Assembly (NCBI GenBank): GCA_032358165.1
Contig: JAALGY010000015.1
Location: forward strand, 2,046,001 to 2,110,000
DNA: 64,000 nt
Reading direction: 5' to 3'
From: Diplosphaera chodatii
Taxonomy: Eukaryota; Chlorophyta; Trebouxiophyceae; Prasiolales; Stichococcaceae
Positions 25,483 through 55,600 of this stretch are shown here, one piece after another. The notes under the pieces were generated by a model. It worked only from the letters and a program-made list of their open reading frames with translations, had not been told where the DNA came from and ran no database searches. Position 1 is the stretch's first letter. Each line of letters starts with the position of its first letter. The position numbers and the translations under genes were made by a program.

Positions 25483-26316
25483 TTGCTGCTAGATGACCTG
25501 AAAGTGGGAAGGCTTCAGTTGACGACTTCATGATGCACATTTGTCTCATGCACCTGCAAAGGCTGCACTGCACTTCGGACGCATGCATAACAGTGCTGCA
25601 TTCACGGAAATCTTGCTTGGCCAACGCCAGGGTGCTGTGGAAGGTGTCATCTCATGCTCATTGCCTGGCACACCAACCAGGTAATACTGGAAAGCCAGAC
25701 ACACCTGAACACTTGCTTGCTGCTGCTCAAAATGCATCATCCAAGCGCTGCACAAGCACACCGCTTCTGCACACCTTACACTGATCTAGGCGGCTTCGTA
25801 CATTACCCAAAACCGTCAAGATTCCATCTCATATCCATCTCGGCCTGCGTCAACAGATTACTACCATGCGCCGCTTGGTCTGTCTACTATATTTCGCGCA
25901 GTCCAACAGCTGCCCAGTTGTGGCTCTATTAATAAAAGGACTAAATATCACGTCGGGAAATGCTCTGCAGCTGTGAGGGCGTATGCAGCCCCTGACAGCG
26001 CAGCAGGTGCCCTGCATGACAACGGTAATGTGAGGCCGGTCTATAAACGTGGATGGACTAAGTTGATAAAGCTGCAAGTGGAGATGTTGACCCCGGGGGA
26101 GTGGACGGCCCATCGTGTCACCCTGTCGGCATAGGGGCGCCCCGCTCAACTCATCTTACTGTGTGACTGAGTCAGATGTACAGCGTGACAGTGACGCTTT
26201 AAGGTTGGGTAAGAACAGTTATGTAGTCGGCTGTTACGGTGGTCAGGACCCCCTTCAATTACTAGTTGCTGGCCCCCATCGTTCCGACGGCCTTTCATGA
26301 TGTTCAATCTGCATTG
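25483..26316. other. Intergenic, GPATCH11 start to inverted-repeat element
   Basis: This 834-bp interval holds the GPATCH11 promoter. The ORFs in it are short and out of register with splice signals. No gene or RNA recognised. It runs into the left arm of the inverted repeat. Confidence 0.4.
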
Positions 26317-26933
26317 TGGCCCCTTTTGGATGCAGTTGCCCGAAATATGACGCTCCAGCTCCTCAATATGACGTTGCTCAAAACGCTAAGTGCTGCAAGC
26401 ACAGACGCCCGCATCATGCGCCACCACTTGCAGATTGCTCTTTGAGACCTTGTTGACCTTCCTGCAAGCGGCCGCGCCTCTCCAGGTGGCCTGCACGCGG
26501 GCATGTGCCCTGGGCACTCACCTGTGTACATCGGCCCAGCCACGGCTACAGCCGTGCGCACGGGCCATGCCCCGGAGTATCGAAGGTCGGTCGTGTGCAA
26601 GTCCTGCCTGCGCCTTCGTTTGGCGCATCGCATGCTCCGTCGTGCTGCAATTCCAGGTTTGCTTGTGGGAGCCTGTACGCATGCATGTCGGTGCATGGCC
26701 CGTGAGGCACAGCTTTCGGGGCGCCAGCAGGCTGTGACGAATCCACTTGGCCTGCTGGATGCAGAGCAATCGCCGGCGACGGTATGCAGACACCCTGGAG
26801 GCTGTGCCAGAGAATGGGGTGCTCGATCCAGACAGCATGCAGTGATGCCACCGCAAGCCGCCGGGGTCAGGGGACGCAGCGACCGAGCAGCAGTAGCGCC
26901 ATGCTGAAGATGCAGCACCAGCGGATGCAGCAG
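26317..26933 (+). repeat. Left arm of 617-bp inverted repeat
   Basis: Starts TGGCCCCTTTTGGATGCAG and matches the reverse complement of 29254-29870. Very few stops occur in several frames, so long spurious ORFs appear on both strands. Includes a NotI-like GCGGCCGC and the repeated motif CGTCATATT near the outer end. Confidence 0.9.
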
Positions 26934-29253
26934 GCGCAGCAAAGTGGCAAACCAGCATGAAATGAGGCGGCATCAATCTGCACAGCCTTCTAGGAAGTCC
27001 ACGCACCCGCTGCTCAGGTGCAGCATTCCTGCTCGGCGGCGTTGTTGTCAGCACATCCAGATTTGGGGTGGTGCAACCGACAAGTGGAGCAAGATATCTT
27101 CTTCGAGTTGATGAGCCAGCACAGTTCCACCACACAAGCAGGGCTGGTTGACATGTGATGCATGGGGAGTGCACATGGCTGCAGCAGTGCTGCAACTGTC
27201 CCTGGCATCTCTGGCAAGCGGTGGTGGGCAGTCAGGGCGCAGCGCATCACTGAAAGCAGTCCTCCTACATGCTCTTTGCTGCCGGTAATGGCCTATGGTA
27301 CAGATTTCGAGACACCGCTCATCATTGACCATCGCCTCAGACCAATGCTCGACTAGTGTGGCAGCAGAGAATGCAAGAGTGGCCGGTGCACATGGCACTG
27401 ACAACAGCGGATATCAAAATACCAATTGTTCAGCAGATTTTATGGATTAACGAGTTGCCCCGGCAACTGCCTGGCAGGATGTTTCTCATGCATTGTATGG
27501 CTGTGTATCACATGTCACCGAGCGCTTCACAGCAAGTCGAGCATGGAGTCGTGGGGCGATGTCTTGCTGCTGTAACGCTGATGCGCTCTTTGTGTGCTGC
27601 AGGCTCATTGCCAAGGAACGAAGCGCCACCCGCCACCTACAGTATCAGCCAGGACTTTCATTTCACCTATCTACAGTGCGAACACAGTGGTCAGCAACCT
27701 GCCCTAGACATCCACCGCTCATGAGGTGACTGGTGATGCAGGAAGTGAGCACCTTCCAGCTTGTGGCAGCCCACGTACAACTGTCGTGGGACTGCATGTG
27801 ACTGTCCGTGAACTCAGCAATGTCATGATCGGTCATCAATGCTTTGCTGACCATTTGCAGGGTTGATGACGCGCCCACCACTGCATATCAGGAGGCATTG
27901 TCGGCAGTGATGTTTGAAAGGGTATCCAGACACTCAGGACTCGCACCATTAATGGATTGGTGCACATGGCTGTGAGACATTTGCTCTCTGCTGAGGTGAG
28001 CGCTGATGAAGCGCATCGCCTAGTCTCTTCTCAATTTGTGCACGCTTATGTGAGGACAACAGTGCTGATGTTGCTCTGCAGATTACGAAGACAGGCCCGC
28101 ATGGCTGGTGAACCCAAAGCATGCAGAGATGCTGGTCCTGCAGGTGGCTACTTCAGACAGTTTCGCCTGTCAGGTTGCATGCTCAACTTTCACAGTGCTC
28201 GAGTGCAGGAGGTGTTGATAGCTCATCCTGCTTGACATCTCATGATCCACCTGCAAACCAGTGGGGCTGTGCAAGCACACGGCTGTACGGGGCGGCAGAT
28301 CAACACATGAGGAGTCCGTATGATGGCCTGAAACCATGATACACCGAGTGCAAGTGGGCCTGCATTATATATCCCGCAGACCAACGTGAGGGCCAGCACA
28401 TGCTTGGCATAATTCAGTGTCACTGTGTTGCACAACGTGTGACAGCCTCCTATCTTAGTGCACACGTTGGTTGTTGTCGCATGTCAAGGGCACATGAGCA
28501 CCGCAGCTGCGCAGATGGCAGCTGTAATACACTGTACATGAGGCAATGCAAAATTGGCTACCAGCCATCAGCACCAGACTCTGGGCATGCTGCACAGCTG
28601 CTTTAAGGTCTGGCAGTGCCCTGCTTGACAGCCTTGTTGCAGAGGCACTTTATAATAGATGCCAGTACTGGAGCAACGATTGTCGACATTGTGCACACAC
28701 GCCGCTCCTGACTCCATGCTGTAGCCCAGGCTGCTGGTAAAGGAGCTTCCTGCAGGCGTCTATACTGCAGCTTGCAGCGGCCCATCCGTATGCTGGCAAC
28801 GGTACTTCTGCGGCAGATACTCGCGCTGTAGTGCAGCCTGCAAGGCCATGTGCCTCTGCTTTGTGACGCTGCTTTGGCGACAGATGCTCGGGCCAGAAAC
28901 GTTGCAGCACGAGTGGATGCGAGCATGGCAGGCAGCTTCAGCTGCACATCGATGCAGATAACGCACCTTTAGAGTGCTATGCGGGGCCTGACTGGCCACA
29001 GATATCCGTTGGGAGTCTGAGGAAGCCATTTTTTGCAATGGCCGCAGCATGCGCTATCAATGCAAAGCGCCTGTCACCTGCTTGCATTGGCGTTTCCCCA
29101 GTCATCCAGGGCTAATCTCAGGGCATCACAGACTTAGCTTGTCATCTCAGCGCTGACAATGCTTTGCACACAATGGGCAAAACAGGACCTGCTTGATTGT
29201 TGGGTGCCCGCGGCATCACAAGAAAGGCATCATCATGTGCTGCCCAGCTCCGT

Positions 29254-29870
29254 CTGCTGCATCCGCTGGTGCTGCATCTTCAGCCTGGCGCTACTGCTGC
29301 TCGGTCGCTGCGTCCCCTGACCCCGGCGGCTTGCGGTGGCATCACTGCATGCTGTCTGGATCGAGCACCCCATTCTCTGGCACAGCCTCCAGGGTGTCTG
29401 CATACCGTCGCCGGCGATTGCTCTGCATCCAGCAGGCCAAGTGGATTCGTTCCAGCCTGCTGGCGCCCCGAAAGCTGTGCCTCACGGGCCATGCACCGAC
29501 ATGCATGCGCACAGGCTCCCACAAGCAAACCTGGAACTGCAGCACAACGGAGCATGCGATGCGCCAAACGAAGGCGCAGGCAGGACTTGCACACGACCGA
29601 CCTTCGATACTCCGGGGCATGGCCCGTGCGCACGGCTGTAGCCGTGGCTGGGCCGATGTACACAGGTGAGTGCCCAGGGCACATGCCCGCATGCAGGCCG
29701 CCTGAAGAGGCGCGGCCGCTTGCAGGAAGGTCAACAAGGTCTCAGAGGCAATCTGCAAGTGGTGGCGCATGATGCGGGCGTCTGTGCTTGCAGCACTTAG
29801 CGTTTTGAGCAACGTCATATTGAGGAGCTGGAGCGTCATATTTCGGGCTAACTGCATCCAAAAGGGGCCA
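29254..29870 (-). repeat. Right arm of 617-bp inverted repeat
   Basis: Reverse-complement copy of 26317-26933, ending CATCCAAAAGGGGCCA. Differences from the left arm are scattered single bases plus one-base indels (for example an extra A near the outer end). It abuts the minisatellite directly. Confidence 0.9.
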
Positions 29871-29872
29871 TA

Positions 29873-29942
29873 TTGGACATACTGCTGGATTGGACTGCTG
29901 GATTGGACATACTGGAGGAGATTTGGACATACTGGAGGAGAT
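29873..29942 (+). repeat. Minisatellite of TTGGACATACTG units
   Basis: Four imperfect tandem units begin TTGGAC: 29873-29889, 29890-29902 (with CATA missing), 29903-29921 and 29922-29942. They lie between the right inverted arm and the first direct repeat copy. Confidence 0.85.
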
Positions 29943-30179
29943 GTTTAAACCCAAACCCTCGAGTCCGAACTCAAACTCGCAGCCGCGATCAATTGCGGCC
30001 AGGGTTTAGGCCCCTTCAGTACACCCGACCCCTTCTCGAGCAAGCGGCGGGGGAGTGTGAATTTCACCAGGAACGGGGCGGTTCTTGTTCACCGGGTCGC
30101 AACCAGGCGTCGACCTCTAGTTATGGGTCTGATTTCGTTTCTGTCGACGGAATTCCGTTTTTGAAAATTGCAAATTCAA
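29933..30179 (+). repeat. Direct repeat copy 1 (about 247 bp)
   Basis: Begins TGGAGGAGATGTTTAAAC and ends GCAAATTCAA. It matches 30215-30460 with a handful of differences, period 281-282 bp. It contains GGGTTTAGG, and AAACCCTAAA lies just after its end, both like the plant/algal telomere repeat. Confidence 0.92.
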
Positions 30180-30214
30180 AGTTAAACCCTAAAAGCCTCA
30201 AGTGGGGGGACTCA

Positions 30215-30460
30215 TGGAGGAGATGTTTAAACCCAAACCCTCGAGTCCGAACTCAAACTCGCAGCCGCGATCAATTGCGGCCAGGGTTTAGGCCCCTTCA
30301 GTACACCCGACCCCTTCTCGAGCAAGCGGCGGGGGAGTGTGAATTTCATGAGGAACGGGGCGGTTCTTGTTCACCGGGTCGCAACCAGGCGTCGACCTCC
30401 AGTTATGGGTCTAATTTCGTTTCTGTCGACGGATCTCGATTTCCGAATTCGCAAATTCAA
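30215..30460 (+). repeat. Direct repeat copy 2 (about 246 bp)
   Basis: Second copy of the unit at 29933-30179. The last 40 bp are the most diverged. No coding function; a chance ORF of 196 codons runs through both copies. Confidence 0.92.
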
Positions 30461-31037
30461 TAATTGGCGTTCGCATGGGCGAGACGCGAGTTTGTCCCCC
30501 ACCGGCATAGGAAAGTGGGAGGCAAGAAGGGCGTGCACTCTGAAAGGCATCGTCATATCTCCCCGTCGTCCAAACACACTCAACTTCTGCTCCTTAGCTA
30601 AGAGGACATAACCATTCGCAAACCAAATTTCGCTCGCCGCGCACCGCGACTAGCTCGTCACTATGCGACGCCGACATCAACAATGCAGGAGATAGGCGAG
30701 GTGATATCAGGCCACAAGCTTGCAGCGCTGACGGCCGGACCGCCCCATCAGCCGTTCCGGAAATACTAGCTTTAGGGTTTACTCTCGCTCCTAAGCGGTG
30801 AACGCAAAGAGTTTGGCCCCTAAAGGGGGGCCAAACTAAAACTTGTGTTCTCGAGATGTCGACAAGGGAATGAAGCCTATTCCCCTTGATGTCGAGGAGG
30901 ACTGCTCGGTGGGAAGACGGAAGCAGATGTGCAGCAAGCTAACCTGCACCAGTTTATTTGTTGCTGATTCCAGTTCCGAGCTTCCGACTGCGGCCTGTCG
31001 CACACTGAGTGCCTGGTCTGAATGCTGATGAACTCAC
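30461..31037. other. Upstream region of the REase-kinase gene
   Basis: No gene is seen in this 577-bp stretch. It contains the telomere-like TTTAGGGTTTA at 30771-30781 and a perfect 10-bp hairpin at 30811-30836. The promoter of the gene starting at 31038 should lie here. Confidence 0.4.
30811..30836. repeat. Perfect 10-bp inverted repeat (hairpin)
   Basis: GTTTGGCCCC (30811-30820) pairs fully with GGGGCCAAAC (30827-30836) across a 6-base loop, about 200 bp before the start of the REase-kinase gene. Could be a transposon end, a regulatory hairpin or chance. Confidence 0.7.
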
Positions 31038-33286
31038 ATGTTTTATACCGTCAGAGAGCTTCTCAAGCTGCATCTCGCAGCCACTGTTGACGTTGATGAA
31101 AACCTCAGCAGACAGAGCAGCGTCCGCAGGACTTTTCCGCAGTCATTGAAACCCTGGCCTGAATTTCTGCAAATTGTTCGGGCACGTATCGAGGCTGCAT
31201 TACAAGGCTTTCCGGACACACGCGAGTTTGACATCGGCGACTTAGATGATGTCTTCATTGGTTCAGAAACAGATGCGGTCTCACAGTTCGTCCAGCACTG
31301 CTTGAAGCGCACCGAAAGAGTGCTTAGGCGTCGGCACGGACATACCTCCTATCGATACATTCAGCATCCCCGTGGCTGCAGCCTACCGGACCGTGAGGTT
31401 CCAGGCGGAGTTGTTGACGCAGCGTGAGTCGCACCCTCCTTCATTTCCGAGATGGTGGAGGAAGTTTTATGGTCTGGATGTTACTGTGACATCGCACCGT
31501 TGTCCACTGCGGGTCAATTGTCTCTCTGCAGGCTGGTGCGCCTGGTGGCTCGTGACAGCAAGGCACTCATTGCTGTGGAGGGCAAACAGCCTGGCGTGCT
31601 CTGCAACAACACCAACCTCATAGAGCACTACCATGACCCGGAGGAAAAGTACAACAAGGTGCCATCATCATGCATGTCCAGATACGCCACAATCACAGGG
31701 GTGCTGGGATGTGCATATACACCTTTCTTCTGCTGCATATATGCACTTGCCCTTGCATATTGCAGGTGCGATACGCGGTCGCGCAGATCACACAATACAT
31801 TCAGGAGCTCGGCACAGAGTTCGGCGTGCTCAGCAGCTTCAGCCGCACCTGGTTCTTCAAGGCCAAGCTGGTGACCTGAATGCACCTTCCCCTTGCATGC
31901 ATCCATGCAGCCGGTATGCGGTGTCTATGGTCACATGATCTTATGTGCTACTCGCCCTAGGACCTTGCAACCAACTTCGTGGACCTGTGGGTGTCACCTG
32001 CTATTCCATGGAATGCCGATGACACGACAGCGACTGAAGTCATGTATGCCCTCTCGGTAAGAAGCTGTCTGATTCGTGATGAAGCAAGTCATTGCAACTG
32101 GCATCATCACTGCTGGCACGTAACATCAGCTCACAGTGGGCTTTCAATTTCCCATATGCAGCTGATCGCAATCGATCGCGAGGCCAAAGGCACTGGCGGC
32201 CTTGCCGGCGGCCGGCGGCAAGCCAGAGGCCTGCCATCCGTCTTCCAGCCTGACCACGGCATGATGACACGGAGCAAGCAGGGCTCTGGTGACAGTGAAA
32301 CAGGTGGCAGCAGCAGGCGCAGCGGCAGCGGTCAGGGGTTTAAAGAAGCCAATGTCTTCACTGCGGACGAGCTCGACCTGGGTGATTGTGCTGCATGCCC
32401 TTTGCCTTCGGTCAATTGCAAGACGACAAAACTTGCTCTGTTGCTGTCAAGGGTTTGTCCTTGCTGCATGACCAGGCTTATGTCCACGTTGTCCTAGGAC
32501 GCATGCTGGGCTGGGGCAGGGATGGCGTGGTGAAGGAGGCGTGCTTCGAGGGGCAGCCGGCAGCTCTTAAGATCATGGTGCCTGAGCTGGCGGAGAACCC
32601 TGCCATGGCTGCCGCTTCATTTGCAGCCGAGCAAAACATCTACAGGGCGCTTGACGATGTGCAAGGTGCTGGTCACACATGTAGTCAGGTGTGCAGCTAG
32701 TTGTTTCACCAGACCAGGGTTAGCCTTCAGCTCCTCTGCTTCTTTGCTTTTAGGCCATCAGATACCACGCCTTTTGGGGACGGGCACCATAGCGAACCGC
32801 AGGGGTACGCTGTGCCCATTCCTGGCCCTCGAACGGTGAGTGCTGTTTAACTGTTATGGTGCTTGTGGGGTCTGACTGCACGTTTTCGTCATATACTGCC
32901 GGCAGGGTCCCTTGGTTGACATGCTGCATTGTACCCTGTGTCACAGGCTTGTGGGCCACACCCTCTATGATGAAGCGCAGCCCAGCCAGCAGCAGGGGCG
33001 GGCAGCGCAACACGCGCTTCGCGCCTTACATGATCGAGGCGTTGTGCATGGAGACGTGAAAGCTGACAACATCATGATAATGGATGCAGCAGCCCCAAAG
33101 GATGGCGTGCGCATTCTCGACTTCGCAGCCAGCAGCATTGGTCTGACAGCAGAATTGCAGTTGGCGGAGGAGCTGGAGCTGGCCAGCATATTCTCGTCCA
33201 AGGGCATCACGTTGGACCCTCTAACGCCGCCGCAGCGGAAGACGTCGCCACGCCTTCGGCCTGTTGACTTTAGTGATAGTGACTAA
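31038..33286 (+). CDS. Crinkler/RHS-type (CR) protein: REase-like domain fused to protein kinase domain
   Basis: Eight exons join in frame to about 507 aa: 31038-31423, 31532-31658, 31766-31870, 31961-32056, 32162-32381, 32498-32665, 32754-32835, 32947-33286. Residues about 1-240 look like the PD-(D/E)xK nuclease-like domain of CR effectors: a PDREV segment, LIAVEGKQPG with the E-x-K pair, then AQITQYI and FGVLSSFSRTWFFKA, a signature pattern of this family. After a Ser/Gly linker (GGSSRRSGSG) comes a kinase domain: G-loop GWGRDGVV, Lys in AALKIM, Glu in AAEQNIYRAL, catalytic HGDVKADN and DFAAS (HRD and DFG altered, catalytic Asp, Lys and Asn kept). The fold assignment is by motif reading, not a search. 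No Crinkler LxLFLAK header or signal peptide is seen. It sits next to a repeat-rich element. Confidence 0.75.
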
Positions 33287-34091: not shown

Positions 34092-35933
34092 ATGGGGCGC
34101 CGGGGGGGACGCGGCGGGGGCAGGGGTGGCGAGGGCGGCGGCGGGTTCGAAGATCAATATGGCGAGGCGATGCGCTCGCAGGACAGAGACAGCCACCATG
34201 GCGGCACGGGAAGGGGCGGCACCGGCTTCAGCGGCGGTGGAGAGGCCGGCGGCAGCAGGGGGGCCGATCTGAAGGGTGCGTGAAGCTACAGATGCTGCGG
34301 TTCCAGCAGCAAGCGGCAAAGTCAGCACGCGTGCTTCAGCATATTGCAGCAGCCACAGGGCTTGATATGCAAGCCGCCCCCTTCTTCGTCCGCAGTTGCT
34401 TCGCATGTGCCCGCGTTCCTGAAGGCACATGCGCACCTGCTGCACGGCAAGGCGCGCAAGGAGTCTGAGCCAGTCGTTGATCAGGGGCCTGACGACGACA
34501 GCGACTTCGAGCGGGACGATGGGGTGCGGCTGCCACTGTCATGGCTCTATATGCAACACAGGCCAGAGCTGTAGAGCCCTGCTCAGCGTCAGCGGCAACA
34601 TCTGTGGGTGCATCTGCGTCCTAGATGTAAGCCTGCTGCGCAAGCGCCACTGTTCCTCTCCTGTGGCAGGGTGCGCTGGCGAGGGCGATTGCCGAGAACC
34701 CTGCGTTGGCAGCTCAGGACAGCGCCCTGCAGCGACGAGCCGACAAGGTGCACTGCTCTTGTTGCCTCTCGTCCGCACCTTTGAAAGCAGAGGACATGTG
34801 GACTCGGCACAATCGCGAGTGCCATCTGCCTCCAGCACCCCACGTTATGACCCTAGCAGCTGCGCGTGCACAACAGGCTCAAGCGGAGGAAGAGAAGGGG
34901 GCAGGCAATCGTGCCTTTGGCGCCAGGGAGTATGACAAGGCAATCGGTCACTTCACGCTCTGCATACGACTGGATCCAGAGTGAGTCCACTACAGGCATG
35001 GCACGAGTACGTACTGCGAGCAGAACTATTGCTACCGCCGTGATGCTTAGACGCCTTGGGCTTGCACATGCGCAATGGCGTCTAGCAATGCATGTCGTGC
35101 TGCTCTTCCACTGCATCTTCGTCACCGTGCCCCTCAGGAACGAGGTGTACTACAGCAACCGTTCGGCGGCGCTGCTGGCGCTGCAGCGGGACCGCGATGC
35201 GCTCGCGGACGGCAGGACGTGCGTTGAGCTGCGGCCGGGCTGGGCCAAGGGCTTTGCGCGAGTCGGCGCTGCCCTCTCGGCCCTGGAGCGGTTTACAGAG
35301 GTGCTGCTGCCTGCCCACCGCTGACAATGCTGGGCTACTAGCGCGCTCACGTTCATCCGGGCCGTCATTGCTGATGAGCACACCAGAGGGCCTGAATTCC
35401 CATCTCAAGCGAGGCACAAGCTCGAACAGATATCGCTCTCTGTACGTTGCCTCACGTGTGTCCAGGCAAAGGAGGCATACCGCAACGCACTGGACCTGGA
35501 GCCAGAAGATGCACAGCTGCAGGCAAGGGCAGATGTCTTTGTAGGAATTGCATAAAACCAATTCTCAGCTGTAATGTGCATTTCGTTCGTTACTTTGCGT
35601 ATGGTACTCTGCAAACATACCCTATGACCCTGTGTGCAACAGGATCTGGCGCACAGGGCAGAGATCGCAGAGCGGAAGGCAGTGGACAACAGGAAGCACA
35701 AGTTCAGCGCTGCACCGGCTGGTGCACCGTCTGCTACGAAGCGAGCTCGCAGCAACATGGCGCACAGCAGCAGCGGGGCTGGCAACGGCAGCGGCAGTGG
35801 GCAGGGCGGGGCCAGCGAAGGCGGCGGACAAGGCAGCGGTGCTGATGACAGCAAACCGGAGGAAGCACACCGAAGACATGGCAAGGCTGGCAAGGGGACG
35901 CTGCTGTCATTTGGCGAAGACGAAGACGAGTAG
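34092..35933 (+). CDS. KIAA1143/DUF4604-like protein with TPR insert
   Basis: Seven exons join in frame to about 334 aa: 34092-34275, 34396-34523, 34670-34747, 34877-34980, 35138-35300, 35466-35522, 35643-35933. The first exon is a Gly/Arg-rich (RGG-like) leader. Exon 2 reads VPAFLKAHAHLLHGK then PDDDSDFERDDG, and exon 3 ALARAIAENPALAA, resembling the N-terminal half of KIAA1143 proteins. Exons 4-6 are TPR repeats (GAGNRAFGAREYDKAIGHF, VYYSNRSAALLALQRDRD, AKEAYRNALDLEPED). The last exon is Ser/Gly-rich and ends KGTLLSFGEDEDE, like the KIAA1143 C-terminus (LLSF plus acidic tail). So a TPR module appears to sit inside a small nuclear-type protein. Exon 6 either ends at a GC donor (AG|GCAAGG) or runs five codons further to a GTAGGA donor; both keep frame. 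Molecular function unknown. Confidence 0.75.
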
Positions 35934-38412: not shown

Positions 38413-39132
38413 TGCAGGAATTAAGTCCTACCCGGGAAACGCTGACTGTATGCATCTCCCACAATCTGGGTTAGTGCGCTCATCTGCGATTGTATATGTA
38501 TGTACGTGCGTCGCCTCCGACATTGTCCTCACCGAGGCAGAAGCAACCGCAGTGCTTTGTGTCGAAACGGGGTGTCGAAACGGGCTGGCTTCTGTAAGTG
38601 GGAACATGTGACACATGCCAACACATGCACCTGGGTACGTAGGTTATGCAAGTGCAGCAACCCCTGTAGCGTTCCGAGTCAGCAATCCGCACGATCACAC
38701 CAGATGTGGTCCGCAGGGGCATAGTTTCGCACCACATCCACTGCGCACCTGACACTAGATTGAGGTGTGACACTTTTGCTGCACATCTGCTGGCCCGACG
38801 CCCTGGGGTCGCTGGCTCTGAGAGCACCCGGGCCTGCACAGTCAGCACAGCCACAGGGCACCACAGTGCGGTGCAGGCGAACCTGTTGCAGGGTGTCAAG
38901 GATGTCGTTGGGTACACAGCCGCTATACAGCGCAGTGCTGTGGAGGCATCAGCCTTGCAGGAGTGAGATGTGAAAGAGCTGGCGTACGCATGTGATAGGC
39001 AACTACACGCTGCCGGCGCCGGCTGACTCTGCTTTGTAAGTGCTGGAGGTCCACCTGAGTCAGACATCATGTCGGCCTCCTGTTGCGATTGATCGTCAAC
39101 GGCTTTTGGCCTCTTGAGGTGTCGAATCAAAG
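38413..39132. other. Intergenic, 720 bp, upstream of SnRK1
   Basis: No gene supported. A 216-codon minus-strand frame crosses it but is Cys/Ser-rich without domains and has no intron signals. It should contain the SnRK1 promoter. Confidence 0.4.
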
Positions 39133-40608
39133 ATGCAAGATGTCAATCAGACGGCAGAGTTCTTCCTGTCCAACTACCGCCTCGGCAAGACGCTTGGCAT
39201 TGGCAGCTTTGGCAAGGTCAAGGTGGCGGAGCACATTCTCACTGGCCACAAGGTCGCCATTAAAATTCTCAACAGACGGAAGATCAAGCAGATGGATATG
39301 GAGGAGAAAGTGCGGCGCGAGATCAAAATTTTGCGGCTGTTCATGCACCCGCACATCATCCGGCTGTACGAGGTTATCGAGACGCCACAGGACATCTATG
39401 TCGTAATGGAGTTCGTGAAGGCAGGCGAGCTGTTTGACTACATTGTGGAGAAGGGTCGGCTGCTGGAGGACGAGGCCCGCCACTTCTTCCAGCAGATCGT
39501 TTCCGGCGTCGAGTACTGCCACCGCAACATGGTGGTGCACCGAGACCTGAAGCCGGAGAACCTGCTCCTGGACACCAACAGCAATGTGAAAATCGCAGAT
39601 TTTGGACTCAGCAATGTCATGCGTGATGGCCACTTTCTGAAGACCAGCTGCGGGTCGCCCAACTATGCTGCACCCGAGGTCATCTCTGGCAAGCTGTACG
39701 CGGGACCAGAGGTGGATGTGTGGAGCTGTGGCGTCATCTTGTATGCACTGCTGTGCGGCAGCCTGCCCTTTGATGACGAAAACATCCCCAATCTGTTCAA
39801 AAAGATCAAGGGCGGCATCTACAATCTGCCGAGCCACCTGTCGCCGGGCGCACGAGATCTCATACCCCGGATGCTGCTGGTTGACCCGCTGAAGCGCATC
39901 ACTATTCCCGAGATCAGGCAGCACCCCTGGTTCACTGTGCACCTGCCACGCTACCTGGCGGTCATGCAGGCGGACACCGTTGCCAGCTCCTCCACGATTG
40001 ACGAGGAGACCGTCTTGGAGGTGGAGCGGCTGGGCTTCCAGCGGGGGGCGCTGCTGGACGCGCTGCGGGGCCGGCACCAGAGCAAGGCAGCCGTCGCGTA
40101 CTACCTGCTGCTGGACAGCCGCCGCCGCAGCGCGGGCTCCGGCGCCTACCTGCGCGCCGAGCTGTCCTCCGCCTGCGAGGCGCTCATGCAGAACCCACTC
40201 GGGCTCTCCTCAGACAGCACAGCGATGCCGCAGCAGCGGCTTGTTGCTGAGCGGCGGTGGCGGTTGGGTGTGCAGTCACGGGGGCACCCCTCAGCCATAG
40301 TTGCTGAGCTGCTGCGCGCGCTGCGGGCATCCCAGGTCCTCTGGAAGAAGTCGGCGCCCTACAACTTCAAGTGCCGGAAGGTCATCCAACTCCCAGGCAA
40401 GCCCCAGCCGATGGAGGATGCGTCACCAGAGGCGGCGGATGGGCTGATGTCGGACGATGCGACATCGCGGGAGCGTGTGCTGAAGTTTGAGGTGCAGATG
40501 TACCGGCTGCGTGATGGCGAGTATGTCGTCGACTTCCAGAGGCTACAGGGCGAGCTGTTCCTGTTCATGGACCTGTGCAGCCGCATGTTTTCGACGCTGC
40601 GGCTCTGA
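39133..40608 (+). CDS. SnRK1: SnRK1 alpha (SNF1/AMPK-type) Ser/Thr protein kinase, intronless
   Basis: 491 aa in one exon. SnRK1 is the catalytic subunit of the plant AMPK-type energy sensor, active in cytosol and nucleus. Kinase domain about residues 15-270: GIGSFGKVKVAEH G-loop, VAIKILNRRKIK, YCHRNMVVHRDLKPENLLL, DFGLSNVMRDGHFLKTSCG with the T-loop Thr, and SPNYAAPEVISGKLYAGPE. HPWFTVHLPRYL ends the lobe. A UBA-like helix region (EVERLGFQRGALLDALRG) follows, then the C-terminal KA1 domain (SAPYNFKCRK and VLKFEVQMYRLRDGEYVVDF, ending FMDLCSRMFSTLRL) that binds the beta and gamma subunits. Complete, normal length. It is the only long gene here without introns. Confidence 0.97.
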   Translation: MQDVNQTAEFFLSNYRLGKTLGIGSFGKVKVAEHILTGHKVAIKILNRRKIKQMDMEEKVRREIKILRLFMHPHIIRLYEVIETPQDIYVVMEFVKAGELFDYIVEKGRLLEDEARHFFQQIVSGVEYCHRNMVVHRDLKPENLLLDTNSNVKIADFGLSNVMRDGHFLKTSCGSPNYAAPEVISGKLYAGPEVDVWSCGVILYALLCGSLPFDDENIPNLFKKIKGGIYNLPSHLSPGARDLIPRMLLVDPLKRITIPEIRQHPWFTVHLPRYLAVMQADTVASSSTIDEETVLEVERLGFQRGALLDALRGRHQSKAAVAYYLLLDSRRRSAGSGAYLRAELSSACEALMQNPLGLSSDSTAMPQQRLVAERRWRLGVQSRGHPSAIVAELLRALRASQVLWKKSAPYNFKCRKVIQLPGKPQPMEDASPEAADGLMSDDATSRERVLKFEVQMYRLRDGEYVVDFQRLQGELFLFMDLCSRMFSTLRL

Positions 40609-52679: not shown

Positions 52680-55600
52680 ATGCGTCAATGGCGGACCTCG
52701 CTCAATGCATTGAAAGTGGCCCGCTTCGCACATCAGGCAGCGGAGACTGTAAATCCAGGTTGGATTGGCTAAGCTCTGGTGTCAAGCATTTTGTGCCCTT
52801 TCTTTGCACATGCCGCCTGTCTGCATCGCCCTATGCTGATGACGCTGACACTCCTGATACTTTGGGTTGTAGGTGCTCTCGCACTCAGTCCAGCCACCCA
52901 GTTGTCGAGCGGCAACAACACAGCGGCGCCGCCTCTGCAGCAAGCAGCCCACTGCGCAGCATGGCAGGCATTCAACCGAGGGTTTGCTGCCCAGCCGCAG
53001 CCCGATTCAGGTGAGGGGCCACTGGTGCAGAGGTAGGCAAGCAAACACACAGAAGTACAGCGCCAGATGCTGTGCGTGCATACGAGATGAGACTAGGCAT
53101 CCGCAATGATGACACCAAACCCATACAATTGCTGTTCAAACCTATCTCTTCGTGAGGACCTGAATATTTGCCCTGAGCGGAGCCACACACATTCGTGGCA
53201 TGCTCCAGCCCTCATGCTAGTATGTTAGCCTGTATGAACGACAGCTCCTGTGACCCTGCTGCAGGGGAAGAGGAAGCCGACAGCAGCAGCAATGCCAAGG
53301 ACACCTTTCTTGCTGACACAGCTGATGTGAAGGAGGGGCCCCTGGCACTGTACAGAAAGCAGCGGGAGGAGGGTCTTTACCGCAAGGTGCCCCCCTGTGC
53401 TAGGCTGTCAAATTGCACGCCCATGATGTTGGGCGTGGCAACATTGCAGCAGATGCACCCTGCATTTGACTGGTGAGCTGCTACCTGCCTGTCAACATGG
53501 TGAACCCATCTGTTTACGTGATGCAATGCAGGACCCGGGACAGGAACGGACAGTACAGATGCTGCAGCGGCTGTACACCGACTTGCGGGCGGCGCACCCG
53601 CCGAAGCGGCGGCCCAGCGGCCTCACGGTTGTTGACAACTACGAGGCAGATTCGTCAAAACGAGGCGGCGGCAATGGCGGCTGGTGCGCTTTTTAAGAGT
53701 TGCCTACTCCCTCCAAAGTACGACGACACCTGCTGAGATCAATGATTCTCAGATGATTCTGTGAATGGCTGAGGGCATGTCCTGTGCTGCAGTTATGGTG
53801 CTGTTGCTGGCCAACTGTTGCACGGTGTCTGAGCACGTTACTTTCCTGCAACTCCTGTATGTTGCTGCAGGTGGTCCAGCTTCATGGGCAGTGACGATGC
53901 AAAGCCTGCGAATCGGCGCACGGCGCCGCAGGGGCTGTACATGTATGGTGGTGTTGGTGTTGGCAAAACAATGCTGATGGACCTGCTGGTCACAGCAGCG
54001 CCGCCTGAGTTCAAGGTGCAACAAGGGTTTTAACCTGAGTCCTGCTGGTTATCAACACCTGCACTGCTATGAGCCACCCCAGTGTGCGTCAGGTGCACCA
54101 CCTTTTGGCAATGGCAGCACTTTATGATGACCTGCTGTACTGCAGCTGAGGCGGACGCACTTCCATGACTTCATGCTGGACGTGCATTCGCGGCTGCAGA
54201 AGCATCGCACTGACAGCGACGCCCTGCACATGGTGTGTTGCACTGCTTCCCGTGCATTGCGTACTGAGCCAAGCCTCTTGACATTGGGCCTGTCGTGCCA
54301 CCAGTTGTTGCGGGTACAGCGTCCTGCTCTTGCCTGACGCCGCTGGCCACTGGTCTGCAGGTGGCGGATGAGCTGGCAGATGAGATGAACGTGCTGGCGC
54401 TTGATGAATTCTTTGTCACAGATGTTGCGGACGCAGTAATCCTGAACCGGCTCTTCAGGTGTCAAGCATGTACTTACTGGCACCACATTGATTTTCTCAC
54501 TTTCATCGATGTGTTGCACCTTGTTGCATCCCTACCAGGCTGGAAACATGTTGAGGCTCATCCGTGTGCTCGTGCATTGACTTTGTGCTGTATACGCATG
54601 CCGTGCAGCCGTCTCTGGGAGCTGGGAGTCGTACTCGTGTCCACTTCTAATCGGGCGCCTGATGCGTTGTATGAGGGCGGCCTGCAGCGTGTCCTGTTCT
54701 TGCCCTTCATTGACCGCCTAAAGGTGACAAGTCATGCAGATTGCCTGCAGTGCCTCAGCAGTTTCTGCAGTGCCGCGAGAGCCACAGCACCTACCGGGCA
54801 CTACTCAAGAAAGAGGGCGAAATTGTCAGGCTTGGTGCAGGAGTATTGTGTGTGCCATGACATGGCATCGCCTACTGACTACCGTAAGCTGGCGCACCCG
54901 CGCCTTGGCATGTACTTCACAGGCAAGGGCAAATTTAGTTTACAAACCCTGCATGGTGCCAGGAATGCGCTTTACAAACCCTGCATGGTGCCAAGAATGC
55001 GCTTTTGCCACACTCTTTATGTTTGCTCCAATGCAGCAGACCAGATCCTTCTGCGGGTCGTTTGCATGCTGCCATCATCTACCGGATGCATCTCCTCACT
55101 CCCAAGTTGCAGGGCCCGCCTCAGGCTTGTGTCACCGTGGCTGCAGGCAGCGATCGGGATGAGGCGTTGGTGGAGTCGTTCCACGAGCTGACCAACCATC
55201 AGCCTGTGGCGCCCACCACCATCCCCGTCCAGATGGGCCGCAAGCTGCAGATAGACAAAGCAGGTGCATCTATGAAGCTTGCCGACCTGCTTTCAATTCA
55301 AATGGCAATCAGCAACTCGCAGCAATTAAGCCGACGTGCTGGGCCTCTTGCCTGGTCAGGACGTGTGCAAATGCTCGCGTACAGTGACGGTGCCCTGTCT
55401 GGTCGATGGACACCTATGTCCTGAGGCCCTGATGTGCACCAACACCTCATGATGCTTCGACTTTCGATGCAGTTCCAGGCAGGCAAACCATCAACAGCTC
55501 ATGTTTCATGTCAACCAGGCGGGTGCATCTGCATGTTGTCCTTCGACGAGCTGTGCGGTAAGCCGCTGGCGGCGGCAGACTACGTTGCACTCGCTGGCCG

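Follow-up and report, generated by a model that had tools for sequence, protein, structure and literature searches.

The window analysed here is a stretch of 64,000 nucleotides of the Diplosphaera chodatii genome (C13:2046001–2110000), from an assembly of 85.6 Mb in 55 contigs with 56 matches to the chlorophyll a/b-binding family when exons are counted separately (one of the 14 control genomes also matched). Together with the introns, these matches mark the source as a photosynthetic eukaryote, plausibly a green alga. At 31038–33286 the window holds a real, intact gene. Its eight exons, spliced in frame, encode 507 aa and a stop codon, and the retention of a single intron brings in a stop codon for five of the seven introns. 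Reading of the upstream sequence showed an in-frame TGA (31029-31031) followed by two sense codons and then by the ATG. The eight in-frame exons and the 507-aa product had been put forward in the original prediction and were confirmed, all seven introns being GT–AG (88–116 b) and their positions being matched in a paralogue; the motifs claimed with them (VEGKQPG, AQITQYI, SSFSRTWFFKA, the G-loop, the Lys, HGDVKADN and DFA) are all present. The parts of the gene are listed below, where invariant residues are those shared by the window protein, the paralogue and a further relative, P0001, and where the PF13588 set is the group of comparator domains used for the N-terminal half.

31038..31423, + strand: exon 1, from M1 to just past the putative REase residue D127; first residue identical in the paralogue and P0001
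31416..31418, + strand: D127, putative REase motif Asp, invariant (3/3) and opposite the PF13588-set Asp in the profile alignment
31532..31658, + strand: exon 2, with the E-x-K strand (exon join; paralogue comparison)
31578..31586, + strand: E145-G-K147, putative REase E-x-K, with E and K invariant (3/3) and in register with the E-x-K of the PF13588 set
31766..31870, + strand: exon 3, AQITQYI...SSFSRTWFFKA; paralogue exon equal in length (105 nt) and phase
31784..31786, + strand: Q178, putative REase motif Gln, invariant (3/3) and in register with the PF13588 set
31961..32056, + strand: exon 4; paralogue exon equal in length (96 nt) and phase
32162..32381, + strand: exon 5, end of the REase half and Ser/Gly linker (exon join; three-protein alignment)
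32498..32665, + strand: exon 6, kinase G-loop, Lys336 and Glu356; paralogue exon equal (168 nt, phase); Pfam Pkinase at residues 312-457
32569..32571, + strand: K336, kinase Lys, invariant (3/3)
32754..32835, + strand: exon 7; paralogue exon equal in length (82 nt) and phase
32947..33286, + strand: exon 8, HGDVKADN loop, DFA, tail GITLDPLTPP...FSDSD and stop; split by the extra intron in the paralogue
33053..33055, + strand: D431, catalytic Asp of HGD, invariant; H429 is replaced by Arg in P0001
33119..33121, + strand: D453 of DFA, invariant

The paralogue (C27:567804–570230; L009:3305–5731) encodes 508 aa that are 39% identical to the window protein. Each of the seven introns of the window gene matches a paralogue intron in alignment column and phase; the paralogue has one intron more, and its intron 2 (L009:3921–4031) is GC–AG, with GT–AG at the equivalent position of the window gene. 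P0001, also of 508 aa, is 51% identical to the window protein with 100% coverage and spans every exon junction of the window gene. The contig that encodes it is probably a transcript, because its 1618 bases leave no room for introns. When each of the three proteins was searched against the genome, two loci were found in all (E up to 0.001), and three weaker matches from one of these searches (E 0.03–0.09) covered the catalytic loop alone. Two protein searches, with the best 7995 candidates scored in each, yielded no relatives beyond P0001, and residues 1-240 of P0001, used as a query with 5469 candidates, returned none besides P0001 itself. No relatives were found in viral contigs, prokaryote genomes or phage records.

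Comparison of the two paralogues gave a pS of 0.69 and a pN of 0.42 over 497 codons, with frames open throughout, and the corresponding values were 0.78 and 0.45 for the N half, 0.54 and 0.46 for the linker and 0.64 and 0.37 for the kinase, the ratios being indicative only because synonymous sites are saturated or nearly so. The linker is the least constrained part, and the identity between the paralogues is 45% in the kinase half against 36% in the N-half. Open frames and shared introns across such divergence show long-term constraint, and by these comparisons the gene looks like a member of an old, resident, two-copy family of the alga that is intron-rich and diverged.

The gene lies among the following features of the window:

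1745–2575: TPR repeats (Pfam)
26216–29875: rearranged 3.66-kb relative of a TIR element, upstream of the window gene
29933–30447: two 233-nt direct copies at 96% identity, 282 from start to start, upstream of the window gene
about 30459–30842: 384-nt dispersed repeat, upstream of the window gene
34095–35933, same strand (+): likely TPR-repeat gene, downstream of the window gene (ORFs read by eye)
39118–40605: SNF1-type kinase with KA1 domain, 496-aa open frame (Pfam)
54268–55188: piece of an AFG1-like ATPase (Pfam)

Nine window ORFs were scanned against Pfam (three matched, six were without a match), and no sign of a defence cluster was seen among them. The full element related to the 3.66-kb stretch is represented by 5.3-kb copies on C11 and C10 (L036:1000–6301; L037:966–6271), which are 98% identical and end in terminal inverted repeats of about 660 nt; inspection by eye of the L036 ORFs revealed no transposase. 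Stretches similar to the 233-nt pair occur elsewhere in the genome. The 384-nt repeat has at least 16 near-full copies, the window copy included, among at least 43 matches, and its ends are fixed, reading AAYAATTGGCG...GGCCAAACTAAAAC in most of the copies viewed, with a hairpin near the right end. The adjoining repeats that had been noted beside the gene are real but dispersed. The suggestion that the gene originated in, or acts in, transposon conflict was not supported: the second copy is single, diverged and intron-rich, and no tie to the nearby repeats was found. We consider the link of the window gene to transposons weak.

The N-terminal half of the window protein gave no Pfam and no NCBIfam family in plain searches. 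D127, E145, K147 and Q178 are among the 61 of 245 positions of this half that are invariant in the three proteins. A lead to HSDR_N_2 (PF13588) came from P0001, with an E of 0.28 for the whole protein and 0.051 for the N-half, in one of the three members. Type I restriction proteins and bacterial proteins related to them carry HSDR_N_2 as their N-terminal nuclease domain. A comparator set was assembled from nine PF13588 members of bacterial plasmid records, annotated as three HsdR N-terminal proteins and six N-6 DNA methylases, all nine of which are above the PF13588 cut-off. An hhalign comparison of the three-relative N-half profile with these nine domains covered 71 columns at a probability of 88.8% and a P of 2.5e-6, a P value that is somewhat optimistic because PF13588 was chosen after the weak Pfam lead. 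D127, E145-x-K147 and Q178 fall on the D, E-x-K and Q of the comparators, so that the PD-(D/E)XK pattern (D...E-x-K with a downstream Gln) is found together with a matching profile. The algal protein differs from the nine compared domains in being longer between K and Q and in carrying a kinase, which these bacterial domains lack.

The probability of this match was 84.1% when the query was swapped and fell to 0.07% both for the reversed profile and for the kinase half. None of 300 column shuffles reached the real score of 45.0, the top score being 21.1 and the top probability 2.2%. The signal needs the three-member profile, because single sequences gave 12.1% (window protein), 64.4% (P0001) and 3.5% (paralogue). 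A PDB profile search of the N-half with an E limit of 10 gave 12 chains, no nuclease among them, the HSDR_N_2 profile searched directly in the genome gave no match, and the predicted structure of P0001 alone had a pLDDT of 32, too low for the model to be of use. Several other candidates for this half were discarded. DUF6197 (E 0.002, residues 85-237) was below its cut-off in the full window protein, was lost when residues 1-304 were scanned alone and is missing from both relatives, and it was set aside, unexplained. Vinculin chains (PDB profile, from E 0.37), a PHROGs match (E 0.37, one of three members) and MerR-DNA-bind (E 0.18, one of three halves) were taken as chance. For the N-terminal 240 residues, on which the original prediction had staked its REase fold, plain searches of the window protein found no REase match whereas the profile–profile comparison did. 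The N-half is likely to have a REase fold, by remote homology only, and the claimed fusion of such a half to a kinase in one gene is supported at that same level for its REase part.

The kinase half of the window protein matched Pkinase (3.2e-8) and APH (2.4e-8) above the Pfam cut-offs; both families are below cut-off in P0001 and the paralogue. K336, E356, D431, N436 and D453 are invariant in the three proteins, and all elements of the kinase fold (G-loop, Lys, Glu, HxD..N, DxG) were recognised. The HRD position reads HGD in the window protein, RGD in P0001 and HGD in the paralogue, and the altered DFA motif noted previously is present in the window protein and also in P0001, with DLG in the paralogue. 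The claim of a kinase thus stands for the catalytic residues, which are kept, but most of the C-lobe is absent, the Pkinase match stopping at profile position 145 of 263, short of a complete C-lobe. The kinase is described here as shortened and Bud32-like because the chain ends 52 residues past DFA and its relatives are alike, all three proteins ending about 50 residues past DFx. A GI-x-L-x-PLTPP stretch is common to the three tails.

Minimal kinases of the Bud32 type have an HGD...N loop and an Asp motif, and their chain ends soon after. The algal kinase resembles them in these three features and differs from them in being fused to a nuclease domain and in giving stronger matches to generic kinases. 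P0001 matched arch_bud32 with an E of 0.0073, far below the NCBIfam cut-off, and among the best 60 of 67 PDB chains only 8k20_B (226 aa, E 3.3e-4), which we take to be a Bud32 although the PDB entry itself says Ser/Thr kinase, was matched into the kinase tail. The window protein also showed a weak catalytic-loop match to FunK1 / Pkinase_fungal (PF17667; E 0.011, residues 417-447), below the family cut-off, and a genome search with PF17667 gave four matches, none of them at the window gene. The 25 PADLOC matches shown were all within the kinase half (best, PD-T4-6, 3.1e-14), and a defence role was not read from them since they reflect the kinase fold.

The original prediction had called the gene CR-type, after the Crinkler (CR) proteins. 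According to PMC5289972 (after Zhang et al. 2016), REase plus kinase makes up about one sixth of CR C-termini, with toxicity attributed to the REase and control of the REase to the kinase; CR header motifs and REase classes are described for a mycorrhizal fungus in PMC6131194. The layout of a REase-fold nuclease and a kinase in one eukaryotic protein, as described for CR modules, is present in the window protein. The CR header (LFLAK-type; PF20147), however, is not among the Pfam matches of the window protein at E up to 5, and the algal gene cannot be called a Crinkler here. PF20147 was also unmatched in the genome, a weak negative that leaves the absence of the header from the genome unproven because the same search matched none of the 14 control genomes. 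The start Met is the same in the three proteins, with the conserved region following at once, and no signal peptide was obvious when the N-terminus was read by eye. Further differences from CR modules are the shortened, HGD-type kinase and the finding of only two copies in the algal family. The label CR-type is accordingly retained for the layout, by analogy, and membership is unproven. A search at the level of titles, which covered some papers pairing Crinkler with an algal term, found no published title on Crinklers of green algae, and none of the papers searched contained both Crinkler and Chlorophyta.

Our preferred reading, for which we see about an even chance, is that this old two-copy host family encodes a cell-internal, kinase-gated enzyme of defence or conflict, in which a PD-(D/E)XK nuclease domain, a flexible Ser/Gly linker and a minimal Bud32-like kinase are joined in one protein. 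We infer its nuclease activity, its kinase gating, its intracellular site and its role in defence or conflict. The protein would act inside the alga's own cells in a manner like that of CR REase–kinase modules: the nuclease domain would cut nucleic acid, the kinase would phosphorylate itself, the linker or the SP/TP-containing tail, and this phosphorylation would either hold the nuclease off or release it upon foreign or damaged DNA.

The kinase might instead be the working part, a housekeeping signalling or DNA-repair kinase whose REase-like half binds nucleic acid or serves as a scaffold. The better conservation of the kinase half between the paralogues (45% against 36% identity; pN of 0.37 against 0.45), the confinement of family matches above cut-off to this half and the finding of two copies only are consistent with this alternative, which we judge possible but clearly less probable than kinase gating; the invariance of D, E-x-K and Q in all three proteins would be needless for a domain that only binds. 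We think it rather improbable that the N-half has a fold unrelated to REases and that its match is a resemblance of motifs. This would agree with the lack of a single-sequence family match for the window half, with the pLDDT of 32 for the P0001 model and with the nuclease-free PDB profile search, but hardly with 71 aligned columns that hold the catalytic residues in register and with a score that none of the 300 shuffles came near.

The layout shared with CR C-termini, as given in PMC5289972, would also suit a genuine Crinkler effector that is secreted or passed into another organism, be it partner or competitor. This is improbable to a further degree, considering that no header was found in the protein (the genome-wide negative being weak), that in each of the three proteins the conserved region starts right at the shared initial Met and that no signal peptide is obvious by eye. 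Least probable of all is that the mobile elements nearby carry the gene or gave rise to it, in spite of the TIR element (26216-29875) and the dispersed repeats less than 5 kb upstream: just one other copy was detected, at 39% identity and with conserved introns, protein searches found no copy of the window gene at the C10 and C11 sites of the element, and the closest repeat match on the paralogue contig, among the matches listed, lies at 321 kb, a distance of about 246 kb from the paralogue.

Beyond the kinase-gated enzyme preferred for this alga, it is conceivable, though on balance unlikely, that green algae retain, without the header, a restriction-type nuclease under kinase control as a built-in enzyme of intracellular defence or abortive response against viruses or mobile DNA; as part of the same tentative reading, such a resident nuclease would be the counterpart of the module exported elsewhere in eukaryotes as Crinkler effectors. 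If the module works in its own cell, it would reveal what REase–kinase fusions do before or without export, with a bearing on the origin of Crinkler effectors, and would offer a tractable protein in which to ask if a nuclease of restriction type can be switched by a kinase.
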